Shown piece after piece: positions 17,218 through 42,010 of a stretch of DNA of 51,180 bases. Under the pieces are notes generated by a model. It ran no database searches. It was given only the letters and a program-made list of their open reading frames with translations, and had not been told where the DNA came from. Both the position numbers and the translations under genes were made by a program. Within the stretch, counting starts at the first letter, position 1. The number at the start of each line of letters is the position of its first letter. Source of the stretch: a virus. The DNA is taken from positions 1-51,180 of IMG/VR virus record IMGVR_UViG_3300043331_000297, one strand, 5' to 3'.

Positions 17218-17275
17218 TTGACACTTCACAGTCAAGCCTGTAATGTAGTCCGCGTGAGGGGGGCAGGCCCCCTCC
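17218..17275 (+). promoter_or_regulatory. Plus-strand promoter, operator and shared leader
   Basis: TTGACA (17218-17223), 17-bp spacer, TAATGT (17241-17246); full operator 17218-17235. The leader GTAGTCCGCGTGAGGGGGG continues into a hairpin (GAGGGGG / CCCCCTC). The same promoter and leader precede the plus-strand genes at 41495 and 42049. Confidence 0.8.
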
Positions 17276-19179: not shown

Positions 19180-19403
19180 GGCGCGGCCCTCAGCCGGCGA
19201 ACCTCCGCGATCAAAGACCTCAATACGTCATGATCGTGATAGCTGGGTCCATCTGTTCCACCGTTAGCCATCTCGGAATAAAGCCGCAACAGATCCCAAA
19301 CCGAGGATCTTTCCGACGTTTCCGGATCAGGGTCAATGCTGGCCGACAGCATCGCCAACGTGCCGTCGTCCACCGGGAACGGGGGGAGAACTGCCCGACT
19401 CAC
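19176..19403 (-). CDS. Small hypothetical protein
   Basis: 75 residues, mostly polar helices (SSVWDLLRLYSEMANGG, HDVLRSLIAEVRRLRAAP). The GTG start overlaps the upstream stop and its own stop overlaps the next start, so it is translationally coupled within the glycosyltransferase operon. Base composition is less GC-rich than its neighbours. The function is unknown. Confidence 0.6.
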   Translation of the reverse strand: MSRAVLPPFPVDDGTLAMLSASIDPDPETSERSSVWDLLRLYSEMANGGTDGPSYHDHDVLRSLIAEVRRLRAAP

Positions 19404-21148
19404 TCCCCGGCCTCCAGGGCGGCCACCATGTCTGCCTTCTTGTCCTTGCGCGTACCCAGCACGATCCCCCGGACCTTCGCCAGCGCGCGGAGCTGGGCCG
19501 TGTTCAGGTCCCCGATCGCGGTACCGGCCGCCACGCCCTCCAGCTCCCCCTCGGTCACCACGGTCCGGTTCGGCGCGTGAACGGTTGACACTTCACTGTC
19601 AGGCTGTGGCGTACGCTCGCCCTCCTCCGGCCAGGGCATCTCCAGCTCGCGGCCGGTCGGCTGGTCCTTGTCCTTGCACCACGGGTCCGAGCACGGTTCC
19701 CCAGTCGCGTGCTCAAACGGGTCAGCGGGCTCCGGGGAGGGGTGAACGCCCTCGCTCGTCACGGCCGTGGTCCGGCCGCTGTCCGGCGTGGTGGCCAGCC
19801 GCGTGACCGCCAGCGCGCCGTGGAAGACCTCCACGGGCTCCAGGACCCCCTCGTCCACGAGCGCGTCCACGGCGGCCTTGACGCCGGGCCAGTCCGGGTG
19901 CCCGTAGTCGTCCACCGCGATCCGCGCGCCCGGGGCCAGGTGCGGTGCCCACAGTTCGATGTCCCGGCGCGCGCCCTCCTCGGAGTGGTCCCCGTCCACG
20001 AACAGCAGACCGACCGGCGGCCCGTCGTACTCGGCCGCCGCGTCCTGGGAGAACGCCTGGATCAGCCTGATGTCCCGGGCGTACCCGAGGGTCTTGACGT
20101 GGTGGTGCGCCCACCGGCGCGCGCTCGGGTCGGTGAACGGGGCATCGTAGGTGTTGCCCGGGAGGTCCCAGGGGTCGATGGCGGTCACGTGCGCCCGGCC
20201 GCCCTGGCGGGCTCCCCAGGCCATCTGGAGCGCGGTCCGGCCGTGGAACACGCCCAGCTCCACGATCTCCTGGTCACCCGGGACCTGGGCCGCGAAGTCC
20301 GCGAGCGCGATCATCACATCCTCGGGCGTGGCGGCGCGTACGCGCCGGAAGAACCTCGGAGGCTTCATCATGATCCTTCCCTGTCGTCTGGCTGTGCGGA
20401 CCGGCCGCCGGGCGGCGGCCCGCTGTTCGGCCTGACCGGCCCGGAGCGCTCGAACGGTCGCTACCTGGGAGGCCAGCGTGGCGACTTGCCACGCTCGGAA
20501 CGTACGCCGGTCCCGGCTCATCTGCTCACGGCTGTTGACCCGCTGGTACTGATCGTCCGTGGTGGCCTTGCCCGCGTACGGGTGCATGTGCTCGATCCGG
20601 ACCTCCGGGAGGTGTCGGACCGCCCCGGCCGCCAGGAACAGCTCCAGGACCGCGTTGTCACAGAACATGTGCTCCACCGGGGCCGGGACCATCCGGCCGA
20701 GCGCGCGCACCACGTCCGAGGTGATCGCCCACTCGGTGGACAGCTTGGCTCCCTGGTACCCGTCGTCCCCGTAGACCATCCCGGTCCCCAGCTCCCGGAG
20801 GACCGCGAGGTACCGCGCCGCCCAGCCGATCGTCTGGGGGAGGTGGTCGTCACCGGCGAAGCCCACGGCCCAGTACAGCTCCGCCATCTCGCGCGCCGCC
20901 AGGTCCAGCTTGTGGACCATCGGCATCCAGCGCGGGACCTCCAGGAGCCGGACCAGGGGCTGGCCGGTGTCCGGGTGCTCGGTGCTCTCCACGAGGTCCC
21001 GGTAACCCTGGATCTCGGGGTCGTCCGCGTCCGCCACCAGGACCAGATCCGCGTGGTCCCACGCGTTCGTGAAGTCCCAGGCCGAGATCACGCGCTGGAC
21101 GTTGCCGGGCCTCCCCCGGGTCGGGACGATGATGGCCAGGTCAGGCAT
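19400..21148 (-). CDS. Glycosyltransferase-methyltransferase-SAP fusion
   Basis: 582 residues in one frame. Residues 1-259: GT-A-type glycosyltransferase (LAIIVPTRGRPGNVQRV, LVADADD, GFAGDDHLP, VYGDDGYQG). Residues ~260-460: class I SAM-dependent methyltransferase of the Methyltransf_24 type (IVELGVFHGRTALQMAWG, AIDPWD, LLFVDGDHSEEGARRDI, DDYGHPDWPGV). The C-terminus has a SAP/Rho-N-like helix pair (NTAQLRALAKVRGI...KKADMVAALEAGE). An internal ATG-ATG at 20371 follows GGGAAGG and would give the methyltransferase-SAP part alone (323 residues). The fusion may be a lost stop codon, or the protein may be made in two forms. Probably methylated glycan synthesis on virion or host surface. Confidence 0.75.
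   Translation of the reverse strand: MPDLAIIVPTRGRPGNVQRVISAWDFTNAWDHADLVLVADADDPEIQGYRDLVESTEHPDTGQPLVRLLEVPRWMPMVHKLDLAAREMAELYWAVGFAGDDHLPQTIGWAARYLAVLRELGTGMVYGDDGYQGAKLSTEWAITSDVVRALGRMVPAPVEHMFCDNAVLELFLAAGAVRHLPEVRIEHMHPYAGKATTDDQYQRVNSREQMSRDRRTFRAWQVATLASQVATVRALRAGQAEQRAAARRPVRTARRQGRIMMKPPRFFRRVRAATPEDVMIALADFAAQVPGDQEIVELGVFHGRTALQMAWGARQGGRAHVTAIDPWDLPGNTYDAPFTDPSARRWAHHHVKTLGYARDIRLIQAFSQDAAAEYDGPPVGLLFVDGDHSEEGARRDIELWAPHLAPGARIAVDDYGHPDWPGVKAAVDALVDEGVLEPVEVFHGALAVTRLATTPDSGRTTAVTSEGVHPSPEPADPFEHATGEPCSDPWCKDKDQPTGRELEMPWPEEGERTPQPDSEVSTVHAPNRTVVTEGELEGVAAGTAIGDLNTAQLRALAKVRGIVLGTRKDKKADMVAALEAGE
19585..19601. promoter_or_regulatory. Intragenic TTGAC-N8-GTCA site
   Basis: Plus strand TTGAC-ACTTCACT-GTCA within the linker before the SAP motif. 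No -10 follows. Confidence 0.6.
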
Positions 21149-21815
21149 GTGGGCTCCACGTGAAGTACGGGCTGGCGACGCTGGCGCGCTCGCCTCTGGT
21201 GATCCGCCGGGGTTGCTGCCACCGGGAGCCGGACCCGGCGGTCCGGTTGGTCGAATACAGGTAGTGGTACAAGATCCGGGGGACCACCACCTGGGTCCGG
21301 AGCACGCGCGCCCGGCGGAGCTGGTCCACCCAGACGCGATCCTCCGCGCGCCCGGCGCGCGCCAGCGAGAAGTCCGCCCGTAGAGCGAGCCGCGTCCGCA
21401 TCGGGTTCAGGTGGGAGATGTCCCGTTCATACCGACCGGGGAAGTTGCGCCAGCGCCGGTACTCCAGCGAGTGGTACGCCACGCCGATCGGTGCGCCGTC
21501 CGAGTAGCACTGGACCTGGAACCCCACGTAGTCCGGCCGCTGGCCCAGCGCGGCCATGATCTCGGCCACGTAGTCCCGGCTCACCAGATCGTCATCGTCC
21601 ACGAACGAGACGTACTCGGTCCCGGCGGTCTCCACCATCCGCTGGCGGATCTTGGGCAGTGGCGGACTCCCGTTGTTGAACCAGCCGATCACCCGGACCG
21701 CTCCGGCGTACGGATCGAGCTGGGGGAGGAGGGTCGCCATCAGCCGCTCGAACAGCGGGCGGCGCTCGCCCAGGGTCGGCACGAGGATCGCCCACGTTGG
21801 CGGCGCGGCTGTCAT
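21141..21815 (-). CDS. Family 2-type glycosyltransferase
   Basis: 224 residues. WAILVPTLGERRPLFERLM at the start and FVDDDDLVSRDY (~72-83) form the nucleotide-binding and DxD motifs of GT-A enzymes. FQVQCYSDGAPIGVAYHSLEY and the AEDRVWVDQL block match actinophage glycosyltransferases. It probably modifies virion proteins or host teichoic or cell-wall sugars. The start ATG 21815 lies only 7 nt after a -10-like TAAGGT, so the mRNA may be leaderless. Operon order on the minus strand: this gene, GT-MTase fusion, 75-residue protein, third transferase. Confidence 0.85.
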   Translation of the reverse strand: MTAAPPTWAILVPTLGERRPLFERLMATLLPQLDPYAGAVRVIGWFNNGSPPLPKIRQRMVETAGTEYVSFVDDDDLVSRDYVAEIMAALGQRPDYVGFQVQCYSDGAPIGVAYHSLEYRRWRNFPGRYERDISHLNPMRTRLALRADFSLARAGRAEDRVWVDQLRRARVLRTQVVVPRILYHYLYSTNRTAGSGSRWQQPRRITRGERASVASPYFTWSPHA

Positions 21816-21822
21816 GTGTCCC

Positions 21823-21848
21823 ACCTTACCGGAACCAGGGGGCATCTC
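21823..21848 (-). promoter_or_regulatory. Late-type leaderless promoter motif
   Basis: Minus strand GAGATGCCCCC (21838-21848), 9-bp gap, TAAGGT (21823-21828), 7 nt, ATG 21815. It lies next to the G-rich repeat at 21867. Confidence 0.6.
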
Positions 21849-21866
21849 GGCGCGGCCTGGCCGCTC

Positions 21867-22001
21867 GGGGACTGGGGGGACTGGGGGGACCCGCCCGAAC
21901 CTCGCGGCCTTACACGTATACGCGCGTCACGCGCGCCACATACAAGGCACTTGGTCCAACGCGCCAAGGTGGAGAGGGTCCCCCCAGTCCCCCCAGTCCC
22001 C
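21867..22001. repeat. 135-bp element with 26-bp G-rich inverted ends (copy A)
   Basis: The left arm (21867-21892) has three G-runs separated by ACT; the right arm (21976-22001) is its perfect 26-bp complement. Between them lies ATACGCG-CGTCACGCGCGCC (21918-21937), an odd-centred palindrome also in copy B. It could form a cruciform, a G-quadruplex or a strong terminator. It separates the 22008 gene from the glycosyltransferase promoter. Confidence 0.75.
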
Positions 22002-22007
22002 CCGGGG

Positions 22008-22256
22008 TTACGGGGTCGGCTCGTCCGCCGTGACCGCGTGCCCCTCCCTGGCCATCTTGGTGGCCGTGATTGTCACGCCCTCGGCCAGGTCCGGCCACGA
22101 CTGAAGGTGGTTCACCAGGGACTGAAGCGCCGCGTCCACGTCCGTCCCGCTGGAGACCGCCGTGTACGGCTTGACCTCGAACTCCACGCCGTTGACGTGG
22201 CGGACCCAGAACGGCTCGTACTGGGCCTCAGCGGGACCGGTGGGTGTGCTGGGCAT
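22008..22256 (-). CDS. Small hypothetical protein
   Basis: 82 residues from ATG 22256 (after AGGAGGGG). The core PFWVRHVNGVEFEVKPYTAV...DVDAALQSLVNHLQSWPDLAEGVTITATKM suggests a small alpha/beta fold. It follows the tail genes on the minus strand and is followed by repeat A, so it is the last gene of the tail operon. Not recognised. Confidence 0.6.
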   Translation of the reverse strand: MPSTPTGPAEAQYEPFWVRHVNGVEFEVKPYTAVSSGTDVDAALQSLVNHLQSWPDLAEGVTITATKMAREGHAVTADEPTP

Positions 22257-22266
22257 GGGACCCCTC

Positions 22267-22782
22267 CTACGGTGCGTAGATCGCTGTCCATTGATGAGCG
22301 GTGCTGAAAGTGGCATTCGTGCTCGGTCGGTACCCGAACAGCGTGAACCCGGTCGTACTGATGTTGATCGCCCGATAGTTGAACTGGGCCGTGTCTCCGG
22401 CCCCGTTGTTCAGGTTGATGTGGACGTTCGGCACGCCCGGGAACGTCATTCCGAAGCTGGCGGCCACGGTGTACGAGGTGGCGTTCGACGGTCCCCCCGT
22501 GACCGATCCGGTCTTGACGATCGCGCCCATCGCGCCGGTGCTGCCCACCGCGCCGATCACCAGGAGCGAGCCGCGTAGCGAGATCATCTGAACGGCCGCG
22601 CCGTCCGGCGCGTACGCCGTGGCCAGCTTGGGCACGCTCGGCACGATGATCCCGCCGGACATCATGATGTCCAGGGTCCCGTCCGAATTGACGGCATCGA
22701 CCGTCCCGGTTCGTAGATGGGTGTGCGGCTCCCCGTCCCGGTCCGGGCTCAACTTCTTCAGCAGCGAGGTGTAATCGATCAT
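22267..22782 (-). CDS. Minor tail protein, baseplate/needle-like with lectin-type end
   Basis: 171 residues. GTVDAVNSDGTLDIMMSGGIIVPSVPKL (~27-55) and SLRGSLLVIGAVG resemble the OB-like module of tail-tip proteins. The C-terminal half (SFGMTFPGVPNVHINLNNGAG, YRAINISTTGFTLFGY) matches H-type-lectin-like repeats found at the ends of phage tail proteins, which may bind host surface sugars. ATG 22782 follows GGGAGC. It lies directly after the DUF5047-type gene, two bases apart, in the tail operon. Confidence 0.7.
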   Translation of the reverse strand: MIDYTSLLKKLSPDRDGEPHTHLRTGTVDAVNSDGTLDIMMSGGIIVPSVPKLATAYAPDGAAVQMISLRGSLLVIGAVGSTGAMGAIVKTGSVTGGPSNATSYTVAASFGMTFPGVPNVHINLNNGAGDTAQFNYRAINISTTGFTLFGYRPSTNATFSTAHQWTAIYAP

Positions 22783-22784
22783 GG

Positions 22785-23858
22785 TTACAGCTCCCTGACC
22801 TGTAGGGATGTCTCCCCGGCGAGGTCCAGAGTCACGGCGTCCACCGCGAGCGCCGAGCCGTCCACGCTCACCACGTCCCCGGCCGTGATCGTCGGGTCGT
22901 ACGGCCGGGTCAACGTGTACGTGGCACCGGCCCCGACGTGGCGGGCCAGGATCGTGTTGGCGGCGCTCTGGGCCTGGCTGACGGTCTCCAGGAGCGGGGA
23001 GGCGAAGAACTCCGTCACGCGGCCGTACGGGCTGGTTCCCGGCCCGGTCCCGGCGTACGTCGGGCTGGACGGGTCGTCATCGATGGCCGTGGCCTGGACC
23101 GGCGCGCTCCCGTCCTGGGGCTCGCCGCGCGCCACGATCACGTTCGGGGGCCGCGTGTCGAAGTCGGCCGAGAGCGAGGTGAGCGCGTCCAGCGGGTACG
23201 CCGTGGCCGGGTCCGGAACGATCGTGCCCACCTGGATCTCGCCCACCCGGTCGTACCACGCGGTCCGGCTGAAGCCCGCCAGCACGTCCAGGATCTCGGC
23301 CCACGGGGCCGTGGACGGGTCCAGCCCGAATATCCGGTCCGCGCCCAGGGTCGCGCCCACCAGGCTCACGCCCGGGTTCACGCCCACGCGGTTGGTCACC
23401 ACCGTGTTGATCATCGTGCCCAGGTCGGTCCCGGCCGCCACGGTCAGCGCGGTCTCGAACCGGTAGCGCTCCACCCGGTCCGAGATGTCGATCAGGCCCA
23501 CCTCCACCACGCGCTGGTCCGCCTCGGTCCGGGTCCGGCTGGACGCGATCTCGTACGTGCCGTAGGGCACGGTGGCCACCGAGCCGTCCAACAGCTCCAG
23601 GCCCAGCTCCACCTCCACGCGCGTCCCGAACGGCGTCAGGAGGTCACCGGGCCGGTGCGGGATCAGCGAGTGGCTGGCGAACGTGAGCCGCCCGTCCCAG
23701 CGCGCGTTCCGCCGGGCGTCCTGGGTCAGCGAGCCGGAGATGGGCTCCAGCTCGCGCGTGACGCCACCGCGCGAGAACGTGAAGCGGGACCAGCGCCGGT
23801 ACCCGGTCGGCGTGCTGAGCGCGGCCTGGTGGCGCGCGGAGCTGAAGCGAGTGGCCAC
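22785..23858 (-). CDS. Minor tail protein, DUF5047-type
   Basis: 357 residues, resembling the tail-tip family DUF5047 of actinophages: FTFSRGGVTRELEPISGSLTQDARRNARWDGRLTFA near the start, then an EVELGLELLDGSVATVPYGTYEI strand block and a SDRVERYRFETALTVAAGTDL segment. It probably forms part of the distal tail hub joined to the tape-measure end. The GTG start at 23858 follows GGGGAGGTAGGC, the same ribosome-site sequence as at the portal gene. The upstream 300 bp is non-coding RNA on the plus strand. Confidence 0.78.
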   Translation of the reverse strand: MATRFSSARHQAALSTPTGYRRWSRFTFSRGGVTRELEPISGSLTQDARRNARWDGRLTFASHSLIPHRPGDLLTPFGTRVEVELGLELLDGSVATVPYGTYEIASSRTRTEADQRVVEVGLIDISDRVERYRFETALTVAAGTDLGTMINTVVTNRVGVNPGVSLVGATLGADRIFGLDPSTAPWAEILDVLAGFSRTAWYDRVGEIQVGTIVPDPATAYPLDALTSLSADFDTRPPNVIVARGEPQDGSAPVQATAIDDDPSSPTYAGTGPGTSPYGRVTEFFASPLLETVSQAQSAANTILARHVGAGATYTLTRPYDPTITAGDVVSVDGSALAVDAVTLDLAGETSLQVREL

Positions 23859-23892
23859 GCCTACCTCCCCGAAAGAATCTTGAGCGGACCGT

Positions 23893-23921
23893 TTGACACT
23901 TCACAGTCAAGCCTGTAATGT
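23893..23921 (+). promoter_or_regulatory. Plus-strand promoter of the tandem RNA
   Basis: TTGACA (23893-23898), 17-bp spacer, TAATGT (23916-23921), with a full operator repeat at 23893-23910. It points into the structured RNA, away from the gene at 22785. Confidence 0.8.
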
Positions 23922-23952
23922 TCTCCGTGTAAGGCAAACAACTCCACAGAGA

Positions 23953-24048
23953 CCTCCACCGGGGTAGAGAACCGGGCCTGGCAAGCCCGGGAGGTACGAG
24001 CCCGAGGGCAGGGACCGGAGCGCTCCGGTTGCCTGATCCCGGTGGAGG
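23953..24048 (+). ncRNA. Structured RNA unit 1 (96 nt)
   Basis: Closed by an 11-bp stem CCTCCACCGGG / CCCGGTGGAGG. Inside are a hairpin CCGGGC-CTGGCAA-GCCCGG with a 7-nt loop, a linker GAGGTACGAGCCCGAG, and a second hairpin GGCA-ggg-ACCGGA...TCCGGT-TGCC. The core is identical to unit 2, while the outer five pairs and one pair of the first hairpin differ in a compensated way. No reading frame is present. The strand is set by the promoter at 23893. Confidence 0.72.
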
Positions 24049-24052
24049 GCCG

Positions 24053-24148
24053 GAGGGACCGGGGTAGTGAACCGGGGGTGAGCGCCCCGGGAGGTACGAG
24101 CCCGAGGGCAGGGACCGGAGCGCTCCGGTTGCCTGATCCCGGTCCCTC
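24053..24148 (+). ncRNA. Structured RNA unit 2 (96 nt)
   Basis: Same length and core as unit 1, four bases further on. Outer stem GAGGGACCGGG / CCCGGTCCCTC; first hairpin CCGGGG-GTGAGCG-CCCCGG. Changes from unit 1 preserve pairing (the five outer pairs switch together, and a C-G pair becomes G-C), while the 7-nt loop is new. It ends five bases before the stop of the convergent tail gene at 24154. Confidence 0.72.
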
Positions 24149-24153
24149 GCTCA

Positions 24154-26967
24154 TCACAGGAAGTCCGCCGGGTCGGAGGTCTCCGGCCAGTCCTGGCGGA
24201 CCATCGTCACCTGGACCACCTTCACGTCCGGAGCCGGAGCGCGGACCGTCCAGCCGGACGGAGCGAACCAGCCGGGCGTCCCGCCCACCGGGCTCCAGTA
24301 CACAAGCTGGTTGGCCAGCATCTCCTCCAGCTCGTTGATCGCCGGAAGGCCCTCCACCGCGATGACCAGGGTCATGTCCTCCCCGGCCAGCGTGGTGGAG
24401 ACCGAGGGGAGCCCGCCATCCAGCGGCACATCGTCCGTGACCAGCCGGGGGAAGTCGTGCGACCGGTCGGTGGCCACCGCGATCCGCGCCGTCATGGACG
24501 AGAGCCGGTCCAGGTCGTCCCCGTACGTGAAGCTGGGCACGGTCACGCTGGCGAAGTCCGAGACCTTCAGCTCCGGCACCGGCAACGGGCCGCCGGTGAT
24601 CGTGCCGTCCAGCCGGACGAAATGGGCCTCCCGGTACGGGGGGAGGTGAGAGACCGAGTTCGTGTTCCCGGAGCCCGAGTTCGAGCGCGTGGGCGTGGCC
24701 GTGGCCGTGCTCCCGGCCGAGTGCGTGTGCCCGGTGGTGGGGCTGTCGCCCAGGTCCCCGAACGACGGAGCCTCGAACGAGCCGGTGGTGGAGACGCCCA
24801 CGTTCGTGTCGTGCGAGTGGGCCGCTATGCCGTGGGTGTGGGCTGGCACCGAGTGGCTGTGTGAACTGGAGCCGCCGGTGGAGTTCACCGAGTCCGAGCC
24901 CCGGTCCCGGGCGAAGTACGTCCGCATGTCCGGCGTGCCGTTGTTCCCGTCGCACAGCGTCAGGAGCGGATCGAGGTCCGCCACGGCCCCGAGGTACAGC
25001 CCGATGATCCGGGTCTGGGTCCCCCCGCCGGTGTTGCGGAGCACCCTCAGCCGCCGGTTGGGTGGCTCCAGCGAGCCGGAGCCGGTCGTCCCGCCACCGG
25101 CGGAGGTCAGGTTCCCGGTGCTCGCGGCCACCACGTCCATCGGGTGCGTGTGCCTCGGGAGCCAGCGCGGCGTGGAGGAGCCGTACCCGGCCTCCTGGGA
25201 GCTGAGCGGGTTGGACAGGCTGGTGGCCCCGATCGAGTGGTCATGGCTGAACCCGGTGTGGGTGTGCGCGTCCACGGTGTGCGTGTGCGTCGCGCCGCCG
25301 GAGTTCGTCCCGCCGTTCCCGGCCGCCGGGGCACCCTTCAGATACCGGCCGGACGAGTCCGCGTCGTCCGTCCAGCCGGACACGCTCTCGGTGGCCCAGC
25401 CCAGCACGCCGGTCGGGTAGTTGGCCTGGGAGCCGTCCGAGGAGATCCAGATCACGGTCCTGGTGGGCGGGACGTTGTTCCCGGTGTTCGTGCCCGGCGC
25501 GCTGGAGCTGGAGTTCCCTCCGGCGTGCGAGCCGGTGGCGCTCGGCCGCGTGTGGCTGTGCGGCTGGTCCGCCTGGCTCTGGGTCGCGCCGTTGAACCGG
25601 GCGGAGGTGGTGGAGGAGTTCGAGGTCCCGGTGGAGCCGCCCACCGAGTGGCTGTGCGCGCCGATGGCGTGCGTGTGGCTGACCCCGGTGTGATCGTGCG
25701 TGGTGGAGCCGCCGGTGGCGCTCGGCGCGGCCGTGGTGCTCGCTCCCCGGGGGTACCGGTCGTCCAGCGCCGTGACGCGCGTCCAGCCGCTCGGGATGGT
25801 CCCGGCCGTGCCCGGCCAGGCCAGGATCAGGTCCGCCGGGATCGTGTCCGGTAGCTCCACGAATGTCGAGACGTACCCGTGGTAGCGGACTCGGTACGTG
25901 ATGTCACACGGTTCGCTTGACACTTCACAGTCAGGACCGGGCACCGGCTGGGGGTCAAGCTGGGGGATCGCTAGATCCAGGTACGTCCCGTTCAGGCCAT
26001 CGGGCACCGTGGCGATGCGCTGGGAGCCGGTGCAATCGTCGCGCCAGACCTCGGCCACCACGTAGTCGTTGTCCCACGCCTGACCACCCGGGTTGCTCCA
26101 GCTCACCCGGTACCCGCCGAACTCCGGCTCCACGGTCACCAGGGGAGGCGAGGGCGGGGGGACCTCGTTGGCCACGTCGAACGCGAGCGTCTGGGAGTGC
26201 TCGAACGGGTCCGCGCCGCGAATGGTTGACCGGACAACGAACTCCGCCGTGTACGAGCCGTCATCCAGGCCCGTGGTCTGGACCTCGCTGGGCGGAATCC
26301 CGGAGCCGGAGCTGGAGAACACGGTGGCCAGCGCCGCGTCCTTCACGGTGACGGACCAGTCCAGCGCCGGAAGCCCGTCGTACCCGGGCGAGCCGAAATA
26401 GAGGTCCGGCTGGTTGGTGTCCGTGATGGTGCCGCCGGTCTGGTCCACCCCGGCGTTGTCGCGGACCTCGGGCGAGTAGTCCGGCCGCGCCCGGCAGTCG
26501 ATGTCCACGTAACACTCGGCGGTCCGGAGTTCGGCCGCGCCGCCGGTCTCCGAGTCCGGCCAGCCCCCGCCGATGTTTAGGTCCGTGAGAGCGCCAGCCG
26601 TGTCCAGGCCGAATGCCAGGTCTTGGTACCAGCTCCCCGTCCGCTCGGTGAACGAGGTACTAACCGGTACCGTGTCGAACTCCAGATAATCCTCAGTACC
26701 TCGACCGAGGTCAATATCTTCTGTGATCGTCCCGGCGTCACAACGAATACGGACCCGGCCCCTGATCCGGTGCCGCTGGTGATTCGCCGGAGGAGTGTGC
26801 GACGCGACGCGAAGATTCCAGTTGTCCCCGTAGTCTGCCAGGTTGAAATCGATATACGTCGCGTCGGAATCGTCGTCGGTAACGGAGTCGAGAGTCCCGG
26901 AGGGCACGGCGGTTCCGGCTCCGGCCTTGCGCACGGAGATGGGCCGGAGCGTGTCCGTTACCGCCAT
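24154..26967 (-). CDS. Tail fibre-like protein with His-x-His repeats
   Basis: 937 residues. N-terminal ~330: beta-rich modules similar in order to those of the 312-residue protein at 29891 (DTLRPISVRKAG... and a shared VTDDDSD start). Middle ~400-780: repeats with H-x-H runs (THDHTGVSHTHAIGAHSHS, ATHTHTVDAHTHTGFSHDHS, SSHSHSVPAHTHGIAAHSHD), a pattern known in trimeric tail fibres that bind metal along the axis. C-terminal ~150: a domain similar to the end of the 837-residue neighbour (GEDMTLVIAVEG...). Probably a receptor-binding fibre. ATG 26967 follows GAGTGAGGGGG. It carries an intragenic operator-like site at 25917. Confidence 0.72.
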   Translation of the reverse strand: MAVTDTLRPISVRKAGAGTAVPSGTLDSVTDDDSDATYIDFNLADYGDNWNLRVASHTPPANHQRHRIRGRVRIRCDAGTITEDIDLGRGTEDYLEFDTVPVSTSFTERTGSWYQDLAFGLDTAGALTDLNIGGGWPDSETGGAAELRTAECYVDIDCRARPDYSPEVRDNAGVDQTGGTITDTNQPDLYFGSPGYDGLPALDWSVTVKDAALATVFSSSGSGIPPSEVQTTGLDDGSYTAEFVVRSTIRGADPFEHSQTLAFDVANEVPPPSPPLVTVEPEFGGYRVSWSNPGGQAWDNDYVVAEVWRDDCTGSQRIATVPDGLNGTYLDLAIPQLDPQPVPGPDCEVSSEPCDITYRVRYHGYVSTFVELPDTIPADLILAWPGTAGTIPSGWTRVTALDDRYPRGASTTAAPSATGGSTTHDHTGVSHTHAIGAHSHSVGGSTGTSNSSTTSARFNGATQSQADQPHSHTRPSATGSHAGGNSSSSAPGTNTGNNVPPTRTVIWISSDGSQANYPTGVLGWATESVSGWTDDADSSGRYLKGAPAAGNGGTNSGGATHTHTVDAHTHTGFSHDHSIGATSLSNPLSSQEAGYGSSTPRWLPRHTHPMDVVAASTGNLTSAGGGTTGSGSLEPPNRRLRVLRNTGGGTQTRIIGLYLGAVADLDPLLTLCDGNNGTPDMRTYFARDRGSDSVNSTGGSSSHSHSVPAHTHGIAAHSHDTNVGVSTTGSFEAPSFGDLGDSPTTGHTHSAGSTATATPTRSNSGSGNTNSVSHLPPYREAHFVRLDGTITGGPLPVPELKVSDFASVTVPSFTYGDDLDRLSSMTARIAVATDRSHDFPRLVTDDVPLDGGLPSVSTTLAGEDMTLVIAVEGLPAINELEEMLANQLVYWSPVGGTPGWFAPSGWTVRAPAPDVKVVQVTMVRQDWPETSDPADFL
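25917..25933. promoter_or_regulatory. Intragenic TTGAC-N8-GTCA site
   Basis: Plus strand TTGAC-ACTTCACA-GTCA within the tail fibre gene. It is followed by GGACC, with no -10. Confidence 0.6.
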
Positions 26968-26999
26968 GATGCCCCCTCACTCCAGCTCATGGTGACATC

Positions 27000-29513
27000 C
27001 TACGTGCCCACATCGGCGGTCTGGGGCGGCGGCTCCGGACCGGTCCCGATGAACGAGGCCGTGACCTGGCGAATCCGGCCGATTTTGACGATCCGGATGG
27101 ACTCCTGGACCGGCGCGGCCCAGACCTCGTTCGCGTCGCTCGGGCTGATCAGGACCAGCGGCCGGGCCAGCACCGCGCGGAGTTCGGCCAGCTCGTCCTC
27201 GCTCTCCACGGCGGCCGTCATCGTCAGGTCCCGGCCGCTCGGCGGCGCGCTGGTCACGAACCGCGAGCCCATCACGCCGGTGGCGGCCGTGAACGGCCGG
27301 GCCACGGACCACTCAAACCGGCCCAGGACCACGGCGTACATCGGCCCGTCCGGGCCGGTGGTCCTGATCAGGTGCTCGTCCTCGCTCCAGTCCAGACAGA
27401 ACAGCTCCTCCCCGGACCCGGCGCTCCAGTCCGAGACCAGGAGCTGTCCGTCCGAGCGGACGATGGTCCGCGCCCGGTAGTACGAACAGCACTCGCCCGG
27501 CTGATGCTCGCACGTCGCGCCGACCCCGGACCGGGGGAGCGTGAAGTCCGTCCACTCGGCGCATTCGTCCGTGGCCAGCGGCCCGAGGATGGCGACGCTG
27601 GTCAGGCCCTGGGAACTGACCAGCGCGGCGGCCGGGTTCACGGTCCAGGCGTTGCCGGTGTCGTCGGTGAACATCTCGGTCCCGGCCGCGTGGTTGGTGA
27701 AGTCCACGGCGGCCAGGATGTCCCCGGTCCGGCCCACGCGGACCTGGAACGAATAGGCCCTCCCCGCGAAGTTGTCCACCTCCGTGAACTGGGCCTCGTC
27801 CAGGTACAGGAGGTTATTGGCCGGTGGCGTGCCGGTCATGTAGAACCGGGGTCGCGCGAACGCGGTACCGGCCGGAGCCGTCCAGGTCTGGGTGATCAGG
27901 GTCCACGTGTTCGCGGTCACGGCCGTGGTGAAAGCGGTACTCGTGGTGGTGAATACCTGATCCGCGTCGTACCACGCGATATCGATGCTCACGTTCCGCG
28001 AGACAGCGCACCGGACCCAAGTTGACACTGTATAGTCAACCAATTCCGTGACCGGCGTGAATGCCGTCATCTGAGCGCGCGAGGTGGCGTCCACTCCGCT
28101 CGGGGTGAGCAACAGGCTCGCCACGCCCTGATGGAATTGCGCGGTAGAGCGCGCCACCGATCCGCCAGCCGCGAACCAGTCCGTGGCGTCGGTCTCGAAG
28201 TACGGGTTCAGGTTCAGCGGGTCCCGGCCCTGGACCGCGCCCACCGTGGTCTCGGCCACGCTGGAGGGGTGGAGCACCGAGGTAGGCGAGCCGGTCACCG
28301 GGTCCCCGATGGCGGCCCAGTCGCCGTTCTCATCCAGGTACTCGAACACCACGGTCCAGCCACCGGAGCCGTTGCTCACGTCCAGGAAGACCCGGAGGTG
28401 GACCCGGCCGAGCGGATCGACCGGAGCCCGGTCGGTGGCGTACGCGGTCACCACGTTGGCGGCCGTGCCGTCCGGGGACCAGGCCAGCGCCAGCCGCCCG
28501 GCCAGCGCCGGGTCTCCTCCCCCGTCCGCGTCCAGGAACAGCCGCCAGACGCGCTCCTCCTCGGCGTCGCTGGCCAGCCACTTGGCGGCCAGCGTCTGAT
28601 CCTGGGCGGGCCGCCAGCCGTCGTCCCGGGCCACCAGGAGGGTCAGCTCCAGGTCTTCCGACTGGACCGGCTCGATATCGGCCGTGGCGTCCAGGGTGAT
28701 ACCCACCGTGGGCTCGGTGCTGATCTCTTTCGAGATCACGGCGGTAGCGCCCAGCTCCAGGCCCGCGCTCGGGGAGCGAGAGTGTGTGCCCGAGGTGGCG
28801 GCCGTGGCGTCCAGCGTGAACTCGGCGCGCGGCGCTATCGAGGTGGCCCCAGGGCGGAGCGCCAGGGTCACGGCGGCCCAGCGCCGGGCCTGGGTGGACA
28901 CGGCCGTGTACGGGCCACGGACCCCGGCCGTGGGGTTGTCGTAGTCGTACGAGACCACGGCGGCCTGGTTGCCGGTGCCGTCCGTGGAGCACGAGATCAA
29001 CTCATTGTTCGCGCCGGACGGGTCGGTCCAGCTCGTGATCGTGGTCCCGGAGCTGGTCGGCTGGCCGTGGATCGAAACGGTCCAGGCTCCGGCCGTAACC
29101 GTCGTGATGGCCGGGGCCACCACGTTGGCGCTGTCCACGTCATCGGAGTCGATCTGGGTAGTGGCGTCCAGCGGCGTGGTGGTGTCCACCGAGTGGTAGA
29201 CCCGGACCTGGACCACCATCCGCCCGGTGCCGGTGCTCAGCGTGGGCGTGACCGTGGTCCCGCCCTCGGTGCCAGCGGCCACCTTGGTCCACACGCCGAG
29301 CCGGAACGCGGCGGAGCCCGCGCGCTCGTTGGCCCTGTTGGTGTACCCGCCCACGGCGGCGGACAGCGTGCTGTTGAACGTGTTCGAGGAGCTAGCCCCC
29401 GCGATGACCACGATGAAGTCCCCGGCCTGGGTGCTGGCCGGGATCGTCGCGGCAAGAGACGCAACGGCGGACGAGGACTCAACCTCGGCCGTAGCCCTCA
29501 GCGGAGGAGCCAC
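27000..29513 (-). CDS. Large minor tail protein with carbohydrate-binding-like domain
   Basis: 837 residues. N-terminal repeats of a ~100-residue beta domain (ATAEVESSSAVASLAATIPAS and on), short tandem linkers with LDATA..., then a middle domain (FETDATDWFAAGGSVARST...SVRCA-like NVSIDIAWYDADQVF) with the pattern of carbohydrate-binding module family 4/9. The C-terminus (GRDLTMTAAVESEDELAELRAVLARPLVLISP) matches the end of the fibre protein at 24154. Probably part of the tail tip, binding cell-wall sugars. GTG 29513 follows AGGAGG. Intragenic operator-like site at 28022. Confidence 0.72.
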   Translation of the reverse strand: MAPPLRATAEVESSSAVASLAATIPASTQAGDFIVVIAGASSSNTFNSTLSAAVGGYTNRANERAGSAAFRLGVWTKVAAGTEGGTTVTPTLSTGTGRMVVQVRVYHSVDTTTPLDATTQIDSDDVDSANVVAPAITTVTAGAWTVSIHGQPTSSGTTITSWTDPSGANNELISCSTDGTGNQAAVVSYDYDNPTAGVRGPYTAVSTQARRWAAVTLALRPGATSIAPRAEFTLDATAATSGTHSRSPSAGLELGATAVISKEISTEPTVGITLDATADIEPVQSEDLELTLLVARDDGWRPAQDQTLAAKWLASDAEEERVWRLFLDADGGGDPALAGRLALAWSPDGTAANVVTAYATDRAPVDPLGRVHLRVFLDVSNGSGGWTVVFEYLDENGDWAAIGDPVTGSPTSVLHPSSVAETTVGAVQGRDPLNLNPYFETDATDWFAAGGSVARSTAQFHQGVASLLLTPSGVDATSRAQMTAFTPVTELVDYTVSTWVRCAVSRNVSIDIAWYDADQVFTTTSTAFTTAVTANTWTLITQTWTAPAGTAFARPRFYMTGTPPANNLLYLDEAQFTEVDNFAGRAYSFQVRVGRTGDILAAVDFTNHAAGTEMFTDDTGNAWTVNPAAALVSSQGLTSVAILGPLATDECAEWTDFTLPRSGVGATCEHQPGECCSYYRARTIVRSDGQLLVSDWSAGSGEELFCLDWSEDEHLIRTTGPDGPMYAVVLGRFEWSVARPFTAATGVMGSRFVTSAPPSGRDLTMTAAVESEDELAELRAVLARPLVLISPSDANEVWAAPVQESIRIVKIGRIRQVTASFIGTGPEPPPQTADVGT
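28022..28039. promoter_or_regulatory. Intragenic TTGAC-N8-GTCAA site
   Basis: GTTGAC-ACTGTATA-GTCAAC, 6-bp arms, within the 837-residue tail gene. This is one of the AT-richest spots in the region. Confidence 0.62.
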
Positions 29514-29527
29514 GATGTCCTCCTGGA

Positions 29528-29878
29528 CTAGACGAGGTTGTCAGCGTCAACCGTGGGGGTCACGTTCAGCACGCCCGCCGAACCGAACCCCTCGGAGGGC
29601 GATATCTCGAACCCGCCCCGGAACGTGCCGCCGGAGCTGGCGGACCAGATCCCCCAGTGCGTGACCGTGGTCCCGGCCGGGATGTCGATGCTCACCTGGG
29701 AGCCGGTCTGGTCACCCGAGGCGGCGGCCCCCCAGGTGGTCTGCTCACGTGCGTACGTGCCGCCCGCAACCTCGTTCGCGCCCGTGGTGCCCGGGTCGCC
29801 GGTGTGCGCTGAGATCCAGCTCCCCAGCGCGGTAACCGCGCCCACAGCGGCGTTGAGCGCCGCGTCCGTGAACCCCAT
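29528..29878 (-). CDS. Small tail protein
   Basis: 116 residues, the GSWISAHTGDPGTTGANEVAGGTYARE...VTHWGIWSASSGGTFRGGFE pattern common to a small tail protein family of many phages. ATG 29878 follows AGGAGG. It lies between the two large tail proteins and is probably a tip or fibre accessory. Confidence 0.75.
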   Translation of the reverse strand: MGFTDAALNAAVGAVTALGSWISAHTGDPGTTGANEVAGGTYAREQTTWGAAASGDQTGSQVSIDIPAGTTVTHWGIWSASSGGTFRGGFEISPSEGFGSAGVLNVTPTVDADNLV

Positions 29879-29890
29879 GTCCTGGTCCTC

Positions 29891-30829
29891 CTATACGTCC
29901 GGTGTGGATGCGTAAGCGCCGTTCGTGCCCGGTAGCAACAGGTATCCGCCCTGGGCACAGTCCACCCGCTGGATCTCCAGCCAGCCCTCCGCACCGTCGA
30001 ACGCGTCCACGTCCGGAGCGCACGCGTTGATCACGTAGAACGGGGCCTCCTCGGTGACCGCTGGCGGGTCGGGAGCCGGGATCGCGCCCACCGAGACCGT
30101 GAACTCCAGGGTCTCCTCGTCACTGGCGTACGCCGTGTTCGCGCCCAGCGTGCTCCAGACCTGGAGGTGGGCCACATAGTCACCGTTGTCCAGCGGCGTG
30201 GTCTGGCGGTTCACCGGGGAGCCGGAGACCGTGCCGGTGTCCCAGACGATCGCGCCGTTCAGGGTGACCCAGTACCGGTACTGGCGCGCGGCCAGGTCGT
30301 CCAGGTCCAGCCCATCGGTGCGGATGGTCGGCTGGGCCGTGTCGGAGATCGTGGTGGTGACCGCGCCGGAGCCGTCCAGGATCTGGGGCGTGAAAGTGGG
30401 GGCCAGGCGGCTGTCCACGTCCAGGTACAGCTCGGTGATCCGGACGCCGGTGGTCTGCCCGGTCACGTACGTGTAGAGCACCGTGGAGCCGTCCGCCGGT
30501 GCGCCGGTGCCCCAGGAGCCCACCACGGTCTCCGGGGAGGCACCGAACAGCGCGGCGGCCCCGGCCACCAGCGAGCCCGAGGAGAGCCGGACCGCCCACC
30601 ACGCGCTCCCGTCCTCCCCGCGCGCCCGGAGCCGGACCTGATGGCGGCGCTCGCCATCCGGCGGCGCGTCGGCCGGTGTGGCCAGGATCAGCGCCGAGCC
30701 GTCGCCACCCCATGCCGCGTACGTGAGGTCCGAGTCGTCCGAGGTCACGCCGTGGAGCGTGCCGGTGCTCGGCGTCCAGCCGACCCCGGAGGAGGTGGCG
30801 GACGGTCTCAGCGTGGTGATCGTGCCCAT
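29891..30829 (-). CDS. Minor tail protein, fibronectin-like modules
   Basis: 312 residues, beta-rich. The first ~110 residues resemble the start of the fibre protein at 24154 (TLRPSATSSGVGWTPSTGTLHGVTSDDSD), suggesting duplication. The rest has repeated beta-sandwich-like segments (TFTPQILDGSGAVTTTISDTAQPTI, DDLAARQYRYWVTLNGAIVWDTG) and a C-terminal short motif (GYLLLPGTNGAYA). Adjacent to the tape measure, so part of the tail-tip complex. ATG 30829 follows GGGGAGG. Confidence 0.7.
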   Translation of the reverse strand: MGTITTLRPSATSSGVGWTPSTGTLHGVTSDDSDLTYAAWGGDGSALILATPADAPPDGERRHQVRLRARGEDGSAWWAVRLSSGSLVAGAAALFGASPETVVGSWGTGAPADGSTVLYTYVTGQTTGVRITELYLDVDSRLAPTFTPQILDGSGAVTTTISDTAQPTIRTDGLDLDDLAARQYRYWVTLNGAIVWDTGTVSGSPVNRQTTPLDNGDYVAHLQVWSTLGANTAYASDEETLEFTVSVGAIPAPDPPAVTEEAPFYVINACAPDVDAFDGAEGWLEIQRVDCAQGGYLLLPGTNGAYASTPDV

Positions 30830-30841
30830 CTCACCTCCCCG

Positions 30842-33151
30842 TCATCGTGCCAAGGTAGCAGCGCCCAGCCGCTCCAGGACCGCCTCGGCGGCTTCCAGGC
30901 CAGCCTCTCGGCCCTGGCCCTGGATGACGATGGCCCCGGCCTGAATGGTCACGTGGACGCCCGCGCCGAGCGCCGCGCCGTCGCCACCGCGCGGACGGCC
31001 CGGCGCGACGTTGAACGTGGGCGTCCCGTCCAGGGCGATGGACGGAACGATCTTGCGGACGGCCTTGTCCACCACGCCCATGTTCTTGGTGATGCCTTGG
31101 GCCACGCCGGGCGGAATCCAGCGGCCCACCTCCAGCTCGGCCACCTTGGACGGGGAGCCGATGCTCAGGGCGTCCTTGAACCCGTCCACGATCCGCTTCG
31201 CGGCGTTGCGCGCGGCGGCCACCGCGCCGGAGATCGCGCTGGTGATGCCGTTCTTCACGCCCGCGATGATGTTCCGCCCGGCACCCACCAGCCAGGAGGC
31301 GGCTCCGCTGAACGCGCCGGTCACGGCCGAGCGCACGGTGGACAGCGCGCTCCGGATCTTGCCCGGAAGCTGGCGGATGATGTTGATGGCCCCGGAGACC
31401 AGGCTGGACGCCTGGTTCCGCGCGGCGCTCCCGGCGGAGCTGAACACGGATGAGACGATCGAGATCAGCGAGGAGATCGCGCTCCGGGCGCGACCGGGCA
31501 GGGACGCGAAGAACCCCACCACGGCCGAGATGCCCGAGGAGACGATCGAGCGCGCCGTGGACCACACGGCCGTGAACACGCCAGCCACCAGGCCCGGGAT
31601 CGCGCGGATGGCGCTCATGATCCGGCCCGGCAGATTGATGAAGAATGAGACGATCGTCCCGAGCCCAAACCCGATCAGATAGGCGATATTCGATACGAGG
31701 TTCGAGAAGAAGCCAGCGATAAGACCGGGGAGCGCGGCCAGCGCGCTCATTATCCGGCCCGGGAGCGACGTGAAGAATCCCATTACCGTGGTCACCAGAT
31801 TGGTGACGAACGAGGTAATGGCGCTCCAGATATTCGAGAAGAACCCGGTAATGGCAGACCAGGCGGAGGAGACCGCGCCCGGGATTCCGGCGAAGAACGA
31901 ACCGATGGCCCTCGCCACGCCGACGATGGCAGGCCACGCCGTTCCCACGAGCCAATCGATCGCGGCAGCCCCGCCAGCCTTGATCGCGTTCCAGGCGATA
32001 ACCAGTCCGTCCAGCACCTTGGACAGGCCATAGATCGAAACCGCTATGTTCGTGATGACCTGTTCCAGCGCGCCGAACAACAGCCCGATATTGCGGACGT
32101 TGTTTTCATTCGACGCGAATAGCGCGAATACCTCTCCGAGGAGAGTGCCGAGCCGGGGGAGGTTCTGGCCCAGCGCTATCAGCGCGTCGCGCATTCCCTC
32201 CAGCGTCTTGGGGTCCGAGGTGAGAACCTTCAGGAACTCCTCGACAAACCCGGCCATTCCCTCGGTCAGCGGACCGATAGCGGGGGCCAGTCCCTCGAAT
32301 ATGCCGTGGAGGAGCGGCGTCAGTTCCAGCGCCTTATCGGCTAGGAAATTGAGCGCGTCGGTGAACGGCTCCATCAGCGGCGCGGCGGCGGACTTGCCGA
32401 CGTTCTTCAGCGTGTCGCCCAGCCGCCGCAAAGAGCCGTCCAGCTTCTCGAACGCGGCGTTGTCCTCCACGGCCGCCTGGGCCTTGGCCAGCTCCGCGCG
32501 AGCCTCGGCCAGCGAGCGCTTGGCGGCGGCCGTGCCGCTCTTGGCCCGTTGCTGGGCCTTGCGGACGCGCTCCTCCGCCTTGTCGAGATCGGCCTGGGCC
32601 TCGTCCCGGGACTTCTTGGCCCCGAACAGCGCGGCGGCCCCGATGCCCAGGAAGACCGCGCCGAGCCCGGCCGTGGCGATGGCGGCGGCGAACGCGCCCA
32701 CGAACGCGGCGGCGGCCGTACCGGCCACCGCGATCACGGCGGCCCCGATCGGCGTGGACAGCGCCGCCGCGAACGGCGCGCGGAGCGCGGAGAAGGTGGC
32801 CGTGTCCGGGGTGAACGCGCGCTTCAGGAAGCTGGAGAACCGGCCCTTGCCCAGGGCGTCCCCAGCGCCCTTCTCAGCGCCCTCCCCAGCGGCGCGGCCA
32901 GCCTCGCGGCCCATGCTGACGAACTTGCCGCGTGAATCCCGGAGCCGCCCGTCAGCGCCGCGCGTGATGCCCTCGGCCAGACCGGCCCCGGCCTCCTCGC
33001 CGGACTTGCGGATGCCCTCGCTGTCAACCTCGACTTTGACCGGATCTAGCTCGATTCGTGACAATGCACGGTCAAGGTCTTGTTCGGTCTGGCGCGCGAA
33101 GTTGCGAACATCGCCCCTGACCTCGACCTCTGCCCGGCCAACATCCGTCAC
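30842..33151 (-). CDS. Tape measure protein
   Basis: 769 residues from GTG 33151. Long helical stretches (FARQTEQDLDRALSRIEL, SRDEAQADLDKAEERVRKAQQRA), hydrophobic membrane-like segments at ~150-180 and ~420-500, and repeated FFSNIWSAITSFV / FFTSLPGRIMSALAALP-type units mark a tape measure. The length predicts a tail of roughly 115 nm (about 1.5 angstrom per residue). It is cut by an operator-like site (33059-33075) close to its start. Codon use in the middle part is less GC-rich. An upstream in-frame TTG at 33196 is possible but lies inside a promoter-like motif. Confidence 0.9.
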   Translation of the reverse strand: MTDVGRAEVEVRGDVRNFARQTEQDLDRALSRIELDPVKVEVDSEGIRKSGEEAGAGLAEGITRGADGRLRDSRGKFVSMGREAGRAAGEGAEKGAGDALGKGRFSSFLKRAFTPDTATFSALRAPFAAALSTPIGAAVIAVAGTAAAAFVGAFAAAIATAGLGAVFLGIGAAALFGAKKSRDEAQADLDKAEERVRKAQQRAKSGTAAAKRSLAEARAELAKAQAAVEDNAAFEKLDGSLRRLGDTLKNVGKSAAAPLMEPFTDALNFLADKALELTPLLHGIFEGLAPAIGPLTEGMAGFVEEFLKVLTSDPKTLEGMRDALIALGQNLPRLGTLLGEVFALFASNENNVRNIGLLFGALEQVITNIAVSIYGLSKVLDGLVIAWNAIKAGGAAAIDWLVGTAWPAIVGVARAIGSFFAGIPGAVSSAWSAITGFFSNIWSAITSFVTNLVTTVMGFFTSLPGRIMSALAALPGLIAGFFSNLVSNIAYLIGFGLGTIVSFFINLPGRIMSAIRAIPGLVAGVFTAVWSTARSIVSSGISAVVGFFASLPGRARSAISSLISIVSSVFSSAGSAARNQASSLVSGAINIIRQLPGKIRSALSTVRSAVTGAFSGAASWLVGAGRNIIAGVKNGITSAISGAVAAARNAAKRIVDGFKDALSIGSPSKVAELEVGRWIPPGVAQGITKNMGVVDKAVRKIVPSIALDGTPTFNVAPGRPRGGDGAALGAGVHVTIQAGAIVIQGQGREAGLEAAEAVLERLGAATLAR
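33059..33075. promoter_or_regulatory. TGAC-N8-GTCAA site near the tape-measure start
   Basis: Exact copy within the first 100 bases of the tape-measure gene. Confidence 0.55.
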
Positions 33152-33174
33152 GGTCCCAGCGTACGGACCAGGGA

Positions 33175-33216
33175 ATGCCCCGTCACTCCGGTACAAGAGG
33201 GCATCTCGGCTAGGCT
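33175..33216. promoter_or_regulatory. Divergent promoter region, GAGATGCCC-type inverted pair
   Basis: GAATGCCCC (near 33173) faces GGGCATCTC (33199-33207), so a GAGATGCCC-like box points both ways. On the plus strand TAGGCT lies 7 nt before the ATG at 33224, a leaderless arrangement. Confidence 0.45.
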
Positions 33217-35975: not shown

Positions 35976-36004
35976 TTGACACTTTACCGCCATGCCTGTA
36001 ACGT
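35976..36004 (+). promoter_or_regulatory. Plus-strand promoter of an RNA locus
   Basis: TTGACA (35976-35981), 17-bp spacer, TAACGT (35999-36004). The second operator arm is degenerate. Confidence 0.68.
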
Positions 36005-36009
36005 AGTTG

Positions 36010-36170
36010 GTGAGCGAGGCCCCCGGCGGAGAAGGCGATTGAGTCGCGCCCCGGGTAAGTCCTCGCTCCACAACAAAAGTCGGGTCTTGCGGCGGAGAAG
36101 GCTCGCCTGTTAAGTTCGAGACCACGAGAGCGGTGGCCCCCGGCCGGTTCGAGCCCCCGGGGGCTACCTG
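36010..36170 (+). ncRNA. Plus-strand RNA with two GGAGAAGGC elements
   Basis: No protein gene fits. Element X (36012-36068): outer stem GAGCGAGG / CCTCGCTC, inner CCCGG / CCGGG, with GGAGAAGGC and GGGTAAGT inside. Element Y (36083-36123): outer stem GGTCTTG / CGAGACC with GGCG / CGCC and again GGAGAAGGC...TTAAG. The same motif is in the small RNA at 16022. It ends in a strong hairpin (36133-36167). Confidence 0.6.
36133..36167 (+). terminator. Terminator of the RNA locus
   Basis: GTGGCCCCCGG / CCGGGGGCTAC, 11-bp stem with one mismatch and a 13-nt loop, before the convergent stop at 36174. Confidence 0.65.
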
Positions 36171-41957: not shown

Positions 41958-42010
41958 TTGACACTTCACAGTCAAGCCTGTAATGTAGTCCGTGTGAGGG
42001 GGACAGCCCC
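41958..42010 (+). promoter_or_regulatory. Plus-strand promoter, operator and shared leader
   Basis: TTGACA (41958-41963), 17-bp spacer, TAATGT (41981-41986), operator 41958-41975. The leader GTAGTCCGTGTGAGGGGGAC is shared with 41466. Confidence 0.82.

Follow-up and report, generated by a model that had tools for sequence, protein, structure and literature searches.

Several structured RNAs of viruses and bacteria resemble, in one respect or another, the element described here. In the xrRNAs of flaviviruses and plant viruses, which sometimes occur in tandem, a three-way junction has conserved bases and a hairpin loop pairs 3′ of the closing stem; a flaviviral xrRNA (three-way junction and loop-to-downstream pseudoknot) stops bacterial RNase J1 in vitro (PMC5760640). 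The put element of phage HK022 is a promoter-proximal folded phage RNA (PMC9378689). Riboswitches and protein-binding leaders combine a conserved junction with variable helices, between a promoter and a Shine-Dalgarno sequence (SD). The ToxI RNAs of type III toxin-antitoxin systems form tandem pseudoknotted repeats behind a promoter, with units of about 36 nt.

The locus studied lies in a 51-kb viral record, kin of Actinoplanes phage phiAsp2, whose whole length (51,180 nt) is called the window below. Its RNA shows no sequence similarity to xrRNAs and differs from them in carrying the pairing loop on the first arm, in belonging to a DNA phage, in its position near the predicted 5′ end of early-type transcripts and in having one member without the pseudoknot (L045); in the other seven of eight units a hairpin loop does pair 3′ of the closing stem, with covariation. 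Like put it is a phage RNA that folds and lies close behind an early-type promoter, but put has two stem-loops in about 70 nt and lacks the present junction, and the element is also found at places where antitermination would be useless. Unlike riboswitches and protein-binding leaders, which would be expected before one gene class and with an expression platform, it precedes two unrelated genes or none and has no Rfam match. It differs from ToxI by units of about 100 nt, by its single copy elsewhere and by the lack of a toxin gene after the repeats, no gene at all following them in the window and L009. As judged by sequence comparison, it is a new RNA family within the broad known kind of structured phage RNAs. 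A family that is absent from Rfam, with clear covariation, a pseudoknot, a near-invariant junction and a size small enough for in vitro work, could shed light on the use of RNA by actinophages against host proteins or RNA decay, an area little explored.

Fold and relatives of the tandem units

A first-pass annotation had described two tandem 96-nt units in 23953-24148, which is correct: they lie on the plus strand at 23953-24048 and 24053-24148, spaced by 100 nt (Table 1). Comparison defines a closing helix P1 of 11-13 bp that holds two arms, P2 and P3. The switch of the outer stem between units, from CCUCC/GGAGG to GAGGG/CCCUC, and the flip of the closing pair of the first hairpin from C-G to G-C are both real. 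The 7-nt loop, thought to change completely, goes from CUGGCAA to GUGAGCG and keeps two of its seven positions. The true unit is longer than 96 nt because five to six bases 3′ of each outer stem (24049-24053 and 24149-24154) pair with the hairpin loop. A short CC-YGMG-GG element, read by eye, recurs after the second junction; it is possibly a mini-hairpin with a YNMG loop and competes with the outer P3 pairs in the window units. The base of P2 may form a kink-turn.

Table 1. Positions of the RNA units, promoters and flanking genes in the window.
Feature	Position	Strand	Remarks
Tail gene, PHROG 1887	22785..23858	-	downstream member of the operon holding the inserted cassette
Operator-promoter TTGACACTTCACAGTCAAGCCTGTAATGT	23893..23921	+	-35 TTGACA, 17 nt, -10 TAATGT
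Leader between promoter and RNA	23922..23952	+	sequence ending ..CTCCACAGAGA
Unit 1 (A type)	23953..24053	+	fold including loop partner
Unit 1 P1	23953-23963/24038-24048	+	
Unit 1 J1/2	23964-23971	+	GTAGAGAA
Unit 1 P2	23972-23977/23985-23990	+	loop CTGGCAA, 23978-23984
Unit 1 J2/3	23991-23999	+	GAGGTACGA
Unit 1 P3 outer	24007-24010/24030-24033	+	
Unit 1 P3 inner	24014-24019/24024-24029	+	
Unit 1 TGAT	24034-24037	+	
Unit 1 loop partner	24049-24053	+	GCCGG
Unit 2 (B type)	24053..24154	+	P3 as in unit 1
Unit 2 P1	24053-24063/24138-24148	+	
Unit 2 P2	24072-24077/24085-24090	+	
Unit 2 loop	24078-24084	+	GTGAGCG; GTGAGC part pairs with GCTCAT, 24149-24154
Tail gene, PHROG 5795	24154..26967	-	upstream tail gene; stop codon abuts the unit 2 loop partner
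Other operator-promoter sites	17218, 41438, 41958	+	among about 12 in the window
Other operator-promoter sites	16737, 15964, 15520, 14601, 13995, 10015	-	among about 12 in the window

The near-identity of the cores, also reported at first, holds as 91% over 86 nt, but this likeness probably results from recent copying between the units. A comparison of one unit with the other is of little value as proof: over 58 nt of the 3′ half (23986-24043) they are identical, and single sequences fold only moderately better than shuffles (z about −2.3; −2.9 and −3.2 for the reverse strand), a difference that makes folding energy alone insufficient as proof. The case is settled by relatives. These were identified with DNA patterns and, as the first-pass annotation had suggested, a covariance model (R1) in six other viral records: an identical pair in L008, a diverged pair in L009, and units in L035, L036, L037 and L045. 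Matches of R1 in relatives have E-values from 1e-13 to 1e-24. The seven records, two of which are identical over the element, provide a small set of eight distinct units, among which the one of L045 is 66-71% identical to the others.

The proposal of a selected plus-strand fold is borne out by these covarying homologues. Two-sided changes are found in 17 of the 27 pairs of the model alignment, compared to 7.8 ± 1.6 after shuffling (none of 500 shuffles was as high); 95% of the cells pair, the covariation score is 0.54 (0.18 shuffled), and the signal is lost when the partner is slid by one to three columns. The hand alignment, with the loop-flank helix included, gives two-sided changes in 23 of 32 pairs (P1 7/11, P2 3/6, outer P3 4/4, inner P3 5/6, loop-flank 4/5) and has only 2 unpaired cells out of 237. 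P3 and the loop-flank helix were aligned partly by hand, which gave a better placement of P3 in the window units. In the junctions, GUAGUGAA, GAGGYACGA and GAU are nearly invariant across units; GUAGNGAA, GAGGYACGA and GAU change very little, L045 included, while the surrounding helices are rewritten. G-U pairs occur at varying positions (P1 in L036, P3 in L035, the loop pairing in the window) and support the plus strand because they would read A-C on the opposite one.

The P2 loop pairs with the bases right after P1 in seven of the eight units, always from the first of these bases (offset 0). The paired sequences are CUGGC/GCCGG in unit 1 of the window and of L009, UGGC/GCCA in L035, GAGCA/UGCUC in L036 and GUGAGCA/UGCUCAC in L037; unit 2 has GUGAGC/GCUCAU in the window and L008, and GUGAGA/UCUCAC in L009. 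Taken singly, the match is not significant for the A type (P 0.05-0.17) and has a P of 0.0004-0.024 for the B type; what makes the pairing convincing is that the A type is swapped for the B type on both sides together. The P2 loop that differs between units is predicted to be one strand of a pseudoknot. Its earlier interpretation as an exchangeable loop for recognising host or phage RNAs does not hold, as the loop pairs and covaries with its own 3′ flank in the same seven units, and a function as antisense guide was ruled out on this ground. The exception is L045, which has a GCGA tetraloop, a longer P1 and no pseudoknot. Loops and flanks of the A and B types show low cross-pairing, which may allow the two units to fold side by side.

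Units 2 of the window and L008 on one side and of L009 on the other have no plus-strand gene after them and stand behind an identical promoter and leader. They differ in P1 (GAGGG/CCCUC versus GGAGC/GCUCC) and in the loop helix, yet both versions pair, which shows that the fold is maintained without a gene. Unit 1 is similar to L035 (A type) and unit 2 to L036 and L037 (B type). Unit 2 of L009 keeps an L036-like P3, as in the single-copy relatives, whereas unit 2 of the window carries the P3 of unit 1. This pattern points to an old A+B tandem with recent copying of unit 1 into unit 2, and the pair is probably of this origin and no fresh duplication.

Promoter, insertion site and mobility

The promoter at 23893 overlaps a palindrome of the type ACAGnC..GnCTGT that extends over the spacer and the −10 region. 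Its initial description as a strong operator-bearing promoter stands for the operator palindrome and the perfect −35 sequence; “strong” is unproven, the −10 sequence agreeing with TATAAT at three of six positions. Three identical copies of TTGACACTTCACAGTCAAGCCTGTAATGT (including those at 17218 and 41958) and about nine degenerate ones are present in the window, and more than 200 copies of the operator-promoter in related phage loci. An ATG, leaderless or behind an SD, follows 164 of 212 copies, compared to 8% of random positions; the copies mostly drive genes, and it is this recurrence in front of genes that leads us to take the element at 23893 as a promoter. With a palindrome over its spacer and −10 it looks like a repressor-controlled early promoter, from which we infer repression and early timing. 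The dispersed palindromic operator-promoters define a putative regulon of phiAsp2-like phages, and many of its genes appear leaderless or short-leadered. The promoter was correctly placed opposite to the neighbouring genes: those checked around the cassette (19400 to 33196) are all on the minus strand.

The cassette separates two tail genes. The product of the downstream one (PHROG 1887) has a phiAsp2 homologue 80% identical in sequence and 24 matching loci among viral contigs. Most phiAsp2 relatives have the two tail genes joined, with no cassette, and a few have other sequence in the gap, which is an insertion-prone site. Other inserts are present in this gap, upstream of the PHROG 1887 homologue, in L013, L014, L021 and L029; some of them resemble homing-endonuclease genes by eye.

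The order in L035, L036 and L037 is promoter, RNA, SD and gene, with the RNA about 20-30 nt before the gene. L036 and L037 have orthologous genes in this position, and the gene of L035 is unrelated to them; neither the L035 nor the L037 gene belongs to a PHROG or Pfam family. In L166 an orthologue of the L036/L037 gene stands behind the same promoter with no RNA, as does a more distant orthologue in L114. There is no clear gene after the RNA in the window, in its close relatives L008 and L009, and in L045, a 101-kb phage in which the RNA lies beside a tRNA-like sequence. A leader similar to that of the window (..AACTACACAG..) is found without the RNA at 41958 of the window and in L172, and in a CTCCACAG form in L141. 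The AACTACACAG-AGAGG leaders at the first two sites look like the empty form of the L037 arrangement (AACTACACAG-RNA-CACAG-AGAGG), in which CACAG may be a target duplication or a recombination site. The RNA is best described as a portable cassette that moves between phages under operator control.

Candidate function and competing explanations

The function that we favour, with a probability of roughly 0.45, is that of an early-expressed autonomous folded RNA whose junction would bind one specific partner. The RNA would be made early from the repressor-type operator-promoter and would function by itself as a stable molecule. Pairing of the P2 loop with the bases immediately after P1, present in most members, folds P2 back against P1 and braces the junction of nearly invariant bases. 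This junction would bind its partner, for which a host or phage protein is the likeliest candidate, to titrate or modify it. The two copies of the window would raise the dose, their distinct loop/flank pairs preventing each unit from pairing with the flank of the other. Where the RNA stands in front of a gene it would be a passenger or a secondary leader. An autonomous RNA is preferred over a leader on account of the gene-less copies. As a search for a terminator behind unit 2 was negative, the 3′ end of a discrete RNA would have to arise in another way; the three of seven records with the RNA just before a gene also count against autonomy.

These same records keep alive, as a possible but doubtful explanation, a cis-acting 5′ leader that would bind a protein or small ligand and control translation or expression of the next gene. 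Their promoter-RNA-SD-ATG arrangement and a conserved junction typical of a binding pocket are what such a leader would have, but the L035 gene is unrelated to the others, orthologues do without the RNA, in the window, L008, L009 and L045 it is followed by no clear gene, and inspection revealed neither a common terminator nor an alternative helix masking the SD. It is unlikely that the element stabilises a 5′ end, with P1 and the pseudoknot blocking RNase J so as to protect downstream RNA or leave a stable small RNA. The three-way junction, a loop that in seven of the eight units pairs immediately behind the closing stem, the predicted distance of about 10-25 nt to the start site and the in vitro arrest of bacterial RNase J1 by a flaviviral xrRNA (PMC5760640) agree with it; against it, mosquito-borne flavivirus xrRNAs use a later arm (L3) for the pairing that is made here by the first, L045, with its GCGA loop, lacks the pseudoknot, and there is neither a sequence relation to xrRNAs nor a sign of a ring round the 5′ end. 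That this pseudoknot-braced phage RNA would be a movable xrRNA counterpart, blocking or sequestering host RNase J 5′-3′ decay, is rather improbable.

A put-like element, one that would bind RNA polymerase so that the enzyme passes terminators on early operons, would likewise be a promoter-proximal folded phage RNA, as in HK022. We regard it as very unlikely because it would drive antisense transcription through the tail genes of the window, because L036 and L037 have one small gene followed by a GC-rich hairpin and a convergent gene, and because of the smaller two-stem-loop architecture of put RNAs. Least credible of all is an element of the opposite strand, a structure between cistrons of the late tail mRNA: the cassette does lie between tail genes and its reverse strand folds slightly better against shuffles, but elsewhere the RNA follows a plus-strand promoter, the G-U pairs exist on the plus strand only, and in most relatives the element is missing between these genes.

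Database searches and other structured RNAs

The first-pass annotation knew of no fitting RNA family, and no Rfam 15 family matches at the gathering threshold; in the window, L045 and L037 the best sub-threshold hits (E about 0.2 to 10) are implausible, and the Rfam riboswitch and ribozyme families gave no match. A tRNA or tRNA mimic was rejected: ARAGORN predicts no gene in the window, L009, L035, L036, L037 or L045, a T loop is lacking and the closing stem has 11-13 bp. By blastn, the 3′ half of unit 1 weakly matches a tRNA-Cys region. The Y RNA YrlA was also rejected. Its model matches only the adjacent tRNA-like sequence in G025, with a score under the cut-off, and gives matches in control genomes too; a weak YrlA/tRNA-like match adjoins the L045 copy while the element itself does not match, and no Ro (TROVE) gene was found in the 17 records searched.

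No RNA homologue was detected among INPHARED phages, phiAsp2 having only the promoter in common, and 69 other promoter-bearing phage loci held no further clear copy. The search of bacterial genomes relied mainly on a single sequence pattern; across 84,980 species it retrieved 17 stretches, each of which the model scores showed to be a chance match. A model search in 395 genomes of one class, weak in that only 9 candidates were scored per genome, found none. Plasmids gave one match, due to chance.

Other structured RNAs were observed in these phages. A second orphan cassette in the window (35976-36130, plus strand) has the same operator-promoter, is oriented opposite to the late genes and consists of two tandem structured units that share GCGGAGAAGGC...TAAGT, with closing stems AGCGAGG/CCTCGCT and GTCTTG/CGAGAC. 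It has no Rfam match, and its exact pattern is absent from 26 other related records; a relative with GGTGGAGACGG...TAAGT lies behind a similar promoter at about 7051 of L109. Strings of T-arm-like motifs (GGTTCGATTCC) that are not ARAGORN tRNAs occur on the minus strand near 6375 of L157 and at 1131-1252 of L045, one set directly behind an operator-promoter variant; they are possibly decayed or unusual tRNA-like RNAs. Near 7604 of L131 (minus strand) a structured leader, unrelated in sequence to the present element, follows a variant promoter and has a stem GTAAGGCAGG ... CCTGCCTTAC around about 60 nt.
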